Assembly (NCBI RefSeq): GCF_038024065.1
Contig: NZ_CP150667.1
Span: 2,363,501-2,427,500 of the forward strand
Length of the DNA: 64,000 nucleotides
DNA from: Polaribacter sejongensis
GTDB taxonomy: Bacteria > Bacteroidota > Bacteroidia > Flavobacteriales > Flavobacteriaceae
Direction of reading: 5' to 3'
A model generated the notes under the pieces. It was not told the origin of the DNA and searched no databases. It saw only the letters and a program-made list of their open reading frames with translations. Below, one piece after another: positions 52,133-55,492 of the stretch (its first letter is position 1; the number at the start of each line of letters is the position of its first letter). The translations under genes were made by a program, and so were the position numbers.

Positions 52133-55100
52133 TTAGATAACTATGTTTATAATTTTACCAGGAACGATAATTACTTTTTTAGGAGCTTTACCTTCTAATT
52201 GAGCAATTGTTTTCTCGTTTTCCATTACTATTTTTTCTATTTCTTCTTTAGATAAATCTAAAGGAAGCTCTAACGTAAAACGCATTTTTCCATTAAAAGA
52301 AATAGGGTAATTCTTAGCACTTTCCACTAAATGACTTGCTTCAAAAACAGGGAAATCTGCTGTAGAAATAGATTCAGTATTACCTAATAAACTCCATAAT
52401 TCTTCTGCAATGTGCGGTGCATAAGGAGAAACCAAAATTGCTAAAGGTTCTAATATTGCACGTTTATTACATTTTAAAGCAGTTAATTCGTTTACGGCAA
52501 TCATAAAGGTAGAAACCGAAGTGTTAAAAGAGAAATTCTCTATATCGTCTTCTACTTTTTTAATGGTTTTATGTAATGTTTTAAGTTCATCTTTAGTTGC
52601 TGCTGCATCAGATACTTCAAATACTTCTTCGTTAAAGTATAGTTTCCATAATTTCTTTAAAAAAGAAGAAACTCCAGAAATACCAGAAGTTTTCCAAGGT
52701 TTTGCTTGCTCTAAAGGGCCTAAAAACATTTCGAATAAACGTAATGAATCTGCTCCGTATTCTTCACAAATAGCATCAGGGTTTACCACATTGTATTTAG
52801 ACTTAGACATTTTTTCTACTTCACGTCCTACCTTATAAGCTCCGTCTTCTAGAACAAATTCAGCATTTTTATAATCAGAATTTAAAGCATGATTTTTAAA
52901 ACCGTCTACATCTAACTCATCAGAAGCATTTACTAAAGAAACATCTGCATGTAAAGCCGTTTTAGTAATCATTACTAAATCAGCAAAATTAGGATCTAAG
53001 AATTTATTATCTAACAAGTAATTTTTAACAACCGTTTCAAATTCATCATCAGAATTAAAGGCATTTTTAGACACAAATACAGTTGGTATTTTCTCTAAAA
53101 CATCATCCATAGATTTTTCATCAGAACAACCACAACCATTCTTTACAAAAGCTGTTGCTTTGTAAACAAAAGCAGAAGTTCCTAAAATCATTCCTTGATT
53201 AATCAACTTTTTAGCAAACTCATCTACAGGTACAATTCCTTTATCGAACAAGAATTTTTGCCAAAAACGAGCATATAACAAATGCCCTGTTGCATGTTCA
53301 GATCCTCCAATATATAAATCTACTTCTTTCCAATAGTCTAAGTTTTCCTTGCTTGCAAACTCGTTAGAATTTGTAGCATCCATGTATCTGTTAAAATACC
53401 AAGAACTACCTGCCCACCCAGGCATTGTATTTAGTTCTAAAGGATAAACAGTTTTGTTTTTTAACTTATCGTTAGAAACCACTTTCTTTCCACGAGAATC
53501 CCAAGCCCATTCTGTTGCGTTTCCTAAAGGTGGTTTTCCATCTTCGGTTGGCAAGTATTTTTCTACTTCTGGCAAAACGATTGGCAAGTGTTCTGCGTCA
53601 ATCATTTGTGGCATTCCGTCTTTGTAATATACAGGGAAAGGTTCTCCCCAATAACGTTGTCTGCTAAAAACAGCATCACGTAAACGGTAGTTTATTTTTC
53701 CGTAACCAAAGCCACGTTTTTCCATTTCGAAAATGGCTAATTTTAATGCTTTCTTATATTTTAATCCTGATAAAAAGTCTGAATTTGCAATTTTTGTTCC
53801 ATCTTTTCCTGTGTGTGCTTCTTCAGAAATATCTACACCTTCAAAAATATTAGGAATCGGAATTCCAAAATGTTTCGCAAAATCATAATCACGTTGATCA
53901 CCACAAGGAACCGCCATAACTGCTCCGGTTCCGTAATTTGCTAAAACGTAATCTCCAATCCATATTTGAACTTTCTCACCTGAAAAAGGGTGAATTGCAT
54001 ACGCTCCTGTAAAAGCACCCGAAATGGTTTTTACATCTGCCATTCTATCACGTTCAGAACGTTTTGCTGTAGCAGCAATATATGCTTCAACTTCTGCTTT
54101 CTGAGCATCTGTAGTAATTTTAGAAACTAACTCGTGTTCTGGAGCTAATGTCATAAAGCTTACTCCGTAAATAGTATCTGGTCTTGTAGTAAAAACATCA
54201 ATCTTATAAGATTTCTCGTCTTTTACAACTACTTCTGTTTCTACTGATTTTTCAATCTTTTTTGGAAATTGAATTGCTGTATTAATTGCCGCAACAACTT
54301 TTAATACATTTTCAACGACTTCTTCGTTTTTAAAACGAACAACATTAAAACTTTCATTGTTAAAAAATTCTGTTCTTGCTGCTTCATCTTCTTTACCAGA
54401 AAATTCAACAATTAAGTTCTTTGCTAAACATACATAATCCACCAAAAAGGTACCTATTGTATATTTTTTTCTGAATTTTGAAGCTCCTTTTTTACTCTTT
54501 AATTCGTCCCAAAGAACTGTTTCTGCTTTAGATAAATTCTGACGTAATTCTTTTAATGCTTCTAATTCCTTATAAGTTAATTTTACTTCCGAAGAAGTAT
54601 TCTTAGCACCGTTATCAACATTAAAAGTAACCATTGCTCCTTGCGAACGTCCAATCCAATTGGTTTGAGAGTCTTTTAAAGGTTGTGGCCAATCTATTTT
54701 TTCTAATCCGTCTAAAAGACGTTGTGCATAAGCAGAAATTCTCATAGACCATTGTGTCATCTTTTTACGAACAACAGGATGGCTTCCTCTTTCTGATACT
54801 CCGTTTACAATTTCGTCATTTGCTAAAACCGTTCCTAAAGCAGGACACCAGTTTACTTCTGTATCCGACAAAAATGTTAAACGATATTGTAATAAAATTT
54901 CTTCTTGCTCTACTTTTGTAAATGCTTTCCATTCATCCGAAGAAAAAGTTTTAATTTCTTCATCACAAACGGCATTTACAGTTACATTTCCATCTTTTTT
55001 AAAGATTTTTTCTAACTCAGAAATATCTTCTGCTTTGTCAGAATCTTTATTATACCAAGAATTGAACAATTGAATAAAGATCCACTGTGTCCATTTATAA

Positions 55101-55492
55101 TATTCCGGACTAGAAGTTCTTACTTCTCTGCTCCAATCAAAAGAAAAACCTATAGTATCTAATTGTCTTCTATATGTTTCTACGTTATCTTCTGTAGTTT
55201 TTGCAGGATGCTGACCTGTTTGAATTGCGTATTGTTCTGCTGGTAAACCAAAAGAATCATATCCTTGCGGATGCAATACATTAAAACCTTTATGACGCTT
55301 GTAACGTGCATAAATATCACTGGCAATATATCCCAAAGGATGCCCAACATGTAAACCTGCTCCGGATGGATAAGGAAACATGTCTAAAACATAATATTTA
55401 GGTTTTTCCGATTCATTACTGGCTTTAAAAGTTTGGTTCTCTGCCCAAAATTTTTGCCATTTCTTTTCTATATCTAAGTGATTATATTGCAT
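52133..55492 (-). CDS. leuS: Leucine--tRNA ligase with an inserted DUF559 domain
   Basis: 1119 residues, against about 930-960 in related bacteria. Class I core: HVGH (48-51), the KMSKS loop (894-898), the editing domain CP1 with TTRPDT (435-440) and the C-terminal anticodon domain. The extra length is mainly a DUF559 (Vsr/PD-(D/E)xK-like) domain, residues about 303-410, inserted at the entry of CP1 between NWIGRSQGAMVTF and IDVFTTRPDT. All synthetase motifs remain intact, so the enzyme should be functional. Another insert (770-885, with CGCS) before KMSKS is the leucyl-specific insertion. Confidence 0.95.
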   Translation of the reverse strand: MQYNHLDIEKKWQKFWAENQTFKASNESEKPKYYVLDMFPYPSGAGLHVGHPLGYIASDIYARYKRHKGFNVLHPQGYDSFGLPAEQYAIQTGQHPAKTTEDNVETYRRQLDTIGFSFDWSREVRTSSPEYYKWTQWIFIQLFNSWYNKDSDKAEDISELEKIFKKDGNVTVNAVCDEEIKTFSSDEWKAFTKVEQEEILLQYRLTFLSDTEVNWCPALGTVLANDEIVNGVSERGSHPVVRKKMTQWSMRISAYAQRLLDGLEKIDWPQPLKDSQTNWIGRSQGAMVTFNVDNGAKNTSSEVKLTYKELEALKELRQNLSKAETVLWDELKSKKGASKFRKKYTIGTFLVDYVCLAKNLIVEFSGKEDEAARTEFFNNESFNVVRFKNEEVVENVLKVVAAINTAIQFPKKIEKSVETEVVVKDEKSYKIDVFTTRPDTIYGVSFMTLAPEHELVSKITTDAQKAEVEAYIAATAKRSERDRMADVKTISGAFTGAYAIHPFSGEKVQIWIGDYVLANYGTGAVMAVPCGDQRDYDFAKHFGIPIPNIFEGVDISEEAHTGKDGTKIANSDFLSGLKYKKALKLAIFEMEKRGFGYGKINYRLRDAVFSRQRYWGEPFPVYYKDGMPQMIDAEHLPIVLPEVEKYLPTEDGKPPLGNATEWAWDSRGKKVVSNDKLKNKTVYPLELNTMPGWAGSSWYFNRYMDATNSNEFASKENLDYWKEVDLYIGGSEHATGHLLYARFWQKFLFDKGIVPVDEFAKKLINQGMILGTSAFVYKATAFVKNGCGCSDEKSMDDVLEKIPTVFVSKNAFNSDDEFETVVKNYLLDNKFLDPNFADLVMITKTALHADVSLVNASDELDVDGFKNHALNSDYKNAEFVLEDGAYKVGREVEKMSKSKYNVVNPDAICEEYGADSLRLFEMFLGPLEQAKPWKTSGISGVSSFLKKLWKLYFNEEVFEVSDAAATKDELKTLHKTIKKVEDDIENFSFNTSVSTFMIAVNELTALKCNKRAILEPLAILVSPYAPHIAEELWSLLGNTESISTADFPVFEASHLVESAKNYPISFNGKMRFTLELPLDLSKEEIEKIVMENEKTIAQLEGKAPKKVIIVPGKIINIVI
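54257..54586 (-). other. DUF559 endonuclease-like domain inside leuS
   Basis: Residues about 303-412 of LeuRS read LRQNLSKAETVLWDELKSKK, KFRKKYTIGTFLVDYVC, LIVEFSGK and FNVVRFKNEEV. These match DUF559 (LR..LT.AE..LW..L, KFRRQ..IG...VDF.C, VVE.DG.QH, GF.VLRF.N.EV). D352 and E363 are kept, but the D of the E-x-D pair is Ser and the QH dyad is lost, so nuclease activity is doubtful. No intein splicing motifs are seen. Confidence 0.85.

Follow-up and report, generated by a model that had tools for sequence, protein, structure and literature searches.

The 64,000-nucleotide stretch of Polaribacter sejongensis DNA analyzed here (contig NZ_CP150667.1, positions 2,363,501 to 2,427,500, hereafter the window) contains leuS, the gene of leucyl-tRNA synthetase (LeuRS), and inside it a DUF559 domain that we identify as a retired member of a set of nuclease-fold domains which occur across the phylum, unspliced and in frame, within essential genes. 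Sequence comparison shows that these domains were inserted in frame, recur at fixed sites, differ in presence between close relatives and can take two divergent forms at one site. This recurrent set, with two divergent forms at the LeuRS site of the genus, extends the first-pass annotation of the window, which had described a single captured domain. In the class to which the window copy belongs, the catalytic residues and the ends are lost, and the core evolves under purifying selection. We favor as probable the reading that the set consists of non-splicing, in-frame mobile nuclease insertions, and that the LeuRS copy of the genus is catalytically dead and kept as a folded domain.

The host open reading frame (ORF) encodes a protein that scores as a bacterial LeuRS (882 bits with TIGR00396 leuS_bact, cut-off 548). 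The first-pass annotation had placed an in-frame DUF559-like domain at the entry to the CP1 editing domain, a reading that a failed profile comparison would have refuted; PF04480 indeed matches residues 312-407 of the 1119-residue ORF at that position (E value of 2.8e-19), with 69.4 bits for a curated cut-off of 20.6. The edges first given for the domain (54218-54607) lie within a few codons of those derived from motif spacing (Table 1). Since the distance between the WIGRS and TTRPDT motifs reaches 162 residues in the window versus 30-59, mostly 30, in insert-free members of the genus, the block accounts for about 132 residues. An assembly chimera is ruled out by the single 4.5 Mb contig of this genome and by 545 database proteins that match the block; among the matches listed, 120 of 120 combine DUF559 with synthetase domains, and the organisms named in these 120 of 545 are chiefly Polaribacter. 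The same block was also found in tens of related genomes. An intein was rejected as well, as a Pfam scan of the block returned DUF559 and one sub-threshold match only, without any protein-splicing domain.

Table 1. Positions of leuS, its DUF559 block and related features in the window
Feature	Position	Strand	Remarks
leuS, leucyl-tRNA synthetase host ORF	52133..55492	minus	1119 aa, uninterrupted frame
Extra block relative to insert-free species	54206..54613	minus	approximately residues 294-429 of LeuRS
DUF559 (PF04480) core	54272..54559	minus	residues 312-407; profile match and block model
FRKKY replacing FR(R/Q)QH, Gln-His pair lost	54461..54475	minus	comparison with intact copies
E-F-S replacing E-x-D, second acidic residue lost, Glu retained	54398..54406	minus	comparison with intact copies
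Second variable region of LeuRS, not DUF559	52814..53167	minus	between GMILGTSAF and KMSKS

Taken alone, the insert matches the solved endonuclease-like protein 3hrl (E value of 2.2e-11), which is also the best fold match of a predicted model of the block (predicted local distance difference test, pLDDT, of 81-94 across most of the core). The DUF559 core is thus predicted to adopt the Vsr or PD-(D/E)XK nuclease fold. The AlphaFold model of the whole LeuRS (24 rows) was too poor (pLDDT of 60.8, predicted template modeling score of 0.30) for the packing of the insert against CP1 to be judged. The active-site losses reported in the first-pass annotation are real and common to the whole degenerate class, in which the complete DUF559 set (Gln-His, Asp, Glu-x-Asp and a late His) is no longer found. 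Where intact copies read FRRQH or FRQQH, the Gln has become Lys in 70 of 72 degenerate LeuRS copies and the His Tyr in all 72; the second Asp is replaced by Ser in 67 of 72. The first Asp (72/72) and the Glu (71/72) are retained, and Gln-His, the second Asp and the late His are lost in nearly all. By comparison, Gln, His, Glu and the second Asp are invariant in 70 intact LeuRS copies (first Asp retained in 69), and the 102 copies found in RecG keep Gln in 101, His in 97, Glu in 99 and both Asp in 102. Judging from these residues, most of the in-frame DUF559 domains examined carry complete, Vsr-like active sites, and the window insert reads as a degenerate member of the family by descent and not as a working nuclease. 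Cleavage of an empty allele by the window copy itself is unlikely.

The comparison of leuS between relatives, as proposed in the first-pass annotation, showed the block to be present, absent or replaced by an intact form at the same site. LeuRS was matched in 164 of 166 searched genomes of the genus; 110 loci were gathered (30 + 80) and 100 used in trees, a motif filter having removed nine with degenerate inserts and an empty one (L121). The insert is degenerate in 59 of these 100 rows, intact in 12 and missing from 29, and at least 13 changes of state are needed on the host-protein tree. On this tree, an intact locus (L076) is sister to an empty one (L132) with a starred support of 100, and another intact locus (L073) is sister to a degenerate one (L064) with a starred support of 95. 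The leuS genes of the first pair are 91-100% identical over most of their length, with the block in one only. Stretches of lower identity are the gene start (78-81%), the 5' edge of the site (83-89%), the second variable region and a portion close to the 3' end (down to 52%); co-conversion was tried as an explanation for the drop near the 5' side of the site, without telling the direction. In the second pair, identity is 46-72% in most of the block, against 73-100% elsewhere in the gene apart from the second variable region. The degenerate class is stable by comparison, with nine changes on the LeuRS tree versus 31.9 when states are shuffled. The 80 leuS records with species names include intact inserts, for instance those of Cellulophaga baltica, Gillisia mitskevichiae and Aequorivita todarodis, and degenerate ones, as in Polaribacter irgensii and P. 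glomeratus; P. porphyrae and Tenacibaculum discolor have no insert. Three of the records (L213, L225 and L226) were grouped with intact copies by scores of 122-154, and the gap of L191 was left unparsed.

Two further features of the LeuRS loci were observed. The CP1 loop of L121, L129 and L138 contains short in-frame palindromes (∼30-70 bp) without DUF559, and similar short palindromes stand beside a degenerate copy, at the insert tail in L093, L104 and L105 and at the insert start in L111; the peptides that they encode are, for example, SSAVEKS and IASETKQS. Besides, the region between GMILGTSAF and KMSKS ranges from 68 to 148 aa in 12 rows (L033-L142 comparison) and is ∼41-70% identical between species, with flanks that are ∼90% identical.

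Besides the leuS insert, the genome of the window has a single DUF559 match, an in-frame domain of RecG whose active site is complete. A one-frame RecG match across the insert was found in at least 39 of 162 genomes among the matches listed, the remaining ones being mostly interrupted at residues 412-419. An empty site, read as LWxKN-SLPPHILVM, is present in several species. Filled and empty alleles at one site in close relatives, a hallmark of homing elements, are thus found for both LeuRS and RecG. Measured by synonymous divergence (pS) of the host gene, an empty recG (L289, 0.33) and a filled one (L291, 0.30) are about equally close to that of the window genome. When RecG states, read manually among the matches listed, are placed on the LeuRS tree (27 filled and 66 empty rows, with seven of the 100 rows lacking a state), 20 changes are required, close to the shuffled mean of 23.6, and 19-27 of 500 shuffles go as low. 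Set against the nine changes (31.9 when shuffled) of the degenerate LeuRS class, these values show turnover of the RecG insert, whether through gains or losses, and stability of the degenerate LeuRS insert. Visual inspection of recG sequences with and without the insert revealed no target-site duplication. A search of ten genomes for end repeats of the recG type matched only at recG in three of them; this search carries little weight, as it missed the known recG ends of G472 and as its reversed control also matched once, in G000.

At a broader scale, DUF559 was found in 188 of 397 genomes of the same family, many times within long open frames, and in 222 of 395 genomes of the phylum. The in-frame hosts comprise LeuRS (three sites), RecG, MetH (two sites) and IleRS; the domain is also carried by frames read as HemD (at the start) and HisD (at the end), and across the phylum by further frames read as HsdR and HsdS. 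The proteins that we take to be HemD, HisD, IleRS, HsdR and HsdS were named from motifs and not by profile. The HemD and HisD cases may represent fusions or neighbors rather than insertions, since the domain lies at one end of a stop-to-stop frame. Eight database LeuRS carry two DUF559 domains (P0131, P0138, P0144, P0146, P0148, P0154, P0187 and P0236). The second one stands before TMPGWAGSS in six of them, P0187 being truncated at that point, and immediately before KMSKS in P0154; together with the CP1 entry, these positions define the three LeuRS sites. In the same scans, L265, L272 and L277 place DUF559 in frames read by eye as the type I restriction subunits HsdS and HsdR, and many genomes of both the family and phylum scans show one weak PF04480 match (E values of 1e-3 to 1e-6).

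In a domain tree of 124 rows, with RecG and degenerate copies down-sampled, the degenerate LeuRS class forms one clade (starred support of 100/100) borne by a long stem. Intact LeuRS inserts from the genus are placed apart from it (support of 94/90, below the star), implying that two divergent DUF559 forms occupy one LeuRS site. Based on this placement, separate arrivals are likely, though not proven; as the support is below the star and the stem is long, both forms may also share a common origin. The HemD, HisD and free-standing copies form one clade each, and the two MetH sites are intermixed, the two copies of a single MetH (L005) being sisters with weak support in the Shimodaira-Hasegawa-like approximate likelihood ratio test. 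The ratio of nonsynonymous to synonymous substitutions (dN/dS) in the degenerate class, computed on every second row (30 of 59), is 0.173 in the core and 0.399 in the linkers, for 0.138 and 0.463 in intact copies and 0.090 in the host portion of the degenerate rows. The degenerate core is under purifying selection, which argues that the domain is kept as a protein. Together with the active-site losses, this bears out the first-pass view of a former endonuclease domain in frame in an essential gene, and points to its long retention. One could propose that the domain was recruited for host benefit, as an inactive nuclease fold turned into a binder contacting tRNA or DNA in LeuRS, and as a provider of DNA contacts in RecG. 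We consider this recruitment unlikely: 29 of the 100 rows of closely related LeuRS do without the insert, and the model does not establish where the insert lies relative to the tRNA. Moreover, from the intact to the degenerate class, net charge only moves from -1.4 to +0.5 while Lys and Arg together drop from 17.9 to 15.8. A gain of positive charge was therefore discarded, the net rise being small and the basic residues fewer.

Many intact copies end with terminal inverted repeats of ∼25-35 bp, each of which is itself a hairpin. Against 100 shuffles (at most one as good), the inverted repeats stand out in both IleRS copies (2/2), both MetH site 2 copies (2/2) and half of the intact LeuRS copies of the genus (6/12), and in none of 68 degenerate LeuRS copies. 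In a hairpin test with 20 shuffles (at most one as good; rows not deduplicated), intact LeuRS copies passed in 51 of 69 cases at the 5' end and 38 of 69 at the 3' end, and degenerate ones in 7 of 91 at each end. The corresponding 5' and 3' scores were 7/12 and 6/12 for RecG, 2/12 and 3/12 for MetH site 1, 0/2 at either end for MetH site 2, 0/2 and 2/2 for IleRS, and 2/3 and 3/3 for HsdR. Palindromic ends resembling Rickettsia palindromic elements or REPINs are thus found in many intact copies and are lacking in the window class, and their stem sequences vary from copy to copy. Such ends could suggest that REP-like termini are moved in trans by a RAYT-type transposase with DUF559 as mere cargo, a scenario to which solitary end-like hairpins, located close to start codons in G131 and G416, would lend some credit. 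It is nevertheless very doubtful, as the insertions keep to fixed sites and the hairpin-bearing genomes G131, G490 and G398 yielded no match to Y1_Tnp, on which ground RAYT-driven transposition was set aside. As regards the lone hairpins themselves, five were read in G131 and G416, where they precede start codons; those of L310, L311, L315, L316 and L318 stand ahead of putative start codons (by eye) of unrelated genes.

Several observations weigh against mobility as the source of this pattern. The inverted repeats beat their shuffles in only 4 of 8 MetH site 1 copies, 6 of 24 family LeuRS copies (a group that includes the window's own, L002) and 1 of 12 RecG copies. DUF559 lineages mostly keep to their own host gene, and purifying selection on the degenerate core could merely reflect the need to stay folded. 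Inserts and hosts mostly diverge at about the same pace, which disfavors frequent jumping: the mean pS is 0.50 for the insert and 0.53 for the host in intact LeuRS pairs, and 0.59 and 0.57 in RecG pairs. Out of 66 LeuRS pairs, the insert falls below its host by more than 0.08 in 17, of which 10 involve L112, and exceeds it in nine; among 66 RecG pairs, it falls below by that margin in five. Although states change many times, divergence of insert and host mostly agrees, and an old presence followed by many precise losses or recombinational exchange fits much of the pattern. It may even be that DUF559 is an old neutral unit, hard to delete precisely, whose spread at leuS and recG results from ordinary recombination and not from a mobile nuclease. 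The agreement in synonymous divergence of most pairs, the stability of the degenerate class and the sharp variation of LeuRS at its second variable region as well are consistent with such a passive insert. We hold it somewhat unlikely, as a neutral passenger would not keep active-site residues nearly invariant in the intact copies of several hosts, and as the domain recurs in several genes and sites and has inverted palindromic ends in many copies. Strikingly young inserts also exist, with a pS of 0.04 for a host value of 0.29 (L074/L112) or 0.16 (L303/L304). Beyond loss and recombination, homing would account for gains of the insert and for the retention of active sites.

In the mobile-nuclease reading that we favor, a Vsr-like DUF559 domain would have entered leuS in frame through a permissive loop that directly precedes the CP1 editing domain. 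Such inserts show no evidence of splicing and are presumably translated within the host protein; they occupy fixed sites in several conserved genes, whose loops may tolerate them because they lie at the surface. Intact copies would spread by homing: they would cleave alleles that lack the insert and be copied into them upon repair. The window class would have outlived the loss of cutting either because a compact fold is hard to delete cleanly or through an acquired use, for which contact with RNA or DNA appears the most plausible. More tentatively, one may envisage a homing nuclease permanently fused within essential enzymes (LeuRS, RecG, MetH, IleRS and others), the host enzyme itself cutting empty alleles, with the LeuRS copy of the genus having dropped out of this cycle, no longer able to cut and now residing in the synthetase as a domain that contacts RNA or DNA. 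The first-pass interpretation thus stands for the in-frame former nuclease, its lost residues and its retention; its suggestions for the present effect (binding, altered editing or neutrality) are candidates, nucleic-acid binding as the current role being a guess. Inteins and introns spare essential genes by splicing out, and DUF559 inserts seem to manage without, remaining in essential enzymes whose function has to be preserved. If true, nuclease domains that are fused to their hosts and not spliced would be able to endure at fixed sites throughout a phylum. The occurrence of intact, degenerate and empty alleles together in one genus would make the path from selfish insert to resident domain readable, and protein evolution by invasion would become directly testable.

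DUF559 domains fused in frame in cellular genes did not come up in searches of open-licence PMC papers, which is no proof that none has been described. The closest relatives in kind compare with the present set as follows. Two insertions are described in a phage DNA methylase: the ShiLan domain, which has a disjunct distribution, leaves the host frame without stop and encodes its HNH nuclease in another frame, and a LAGLIDADG homing endonuclease that seems to stand alone and is apparently vertically inherited (PMC11855218). These insertions share with DUF559 a conserved host gene, the lack of detectable intein or intron splicing and a nuclease inside, but they are phage-borne (PMC11855218), whereas DUF559 is an in-frame, Vsr-like domain, in many cases flanked by palindromes, of several essential genes of cells. 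Rickettsia palindromic elements similarly stand in frame within unrelated protein genes, but they are ∼150 bp long and encode a short peptide, with no nuclease domain described in the text at hand (PMC10969869). The EDxHD homing endonuclease I-Bth0305I differs by its tethered DNA-binding region and its group I intron-type homing (PMC3943268), DUF559 being here a fused insert and the window copy having lost active-site residues. VsrA of Caulobacter is likewise a DUF559 domain and a Vsr-like endonuclease, yet it is depicted as a separate gene functionally tied to cytosine methylation and not as an insertion (PMC12907096). Finally, inteins with homing endonucleases resemble the DUF559 set in that they occupy fixed positions close to conserved motifs of essential genes, are sporadically distributed and contain a nuclease (in part from PMC11855218). 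Unlike them, the DUF559 block has no splicing domain by Pfam and is expected to remain in the protein.
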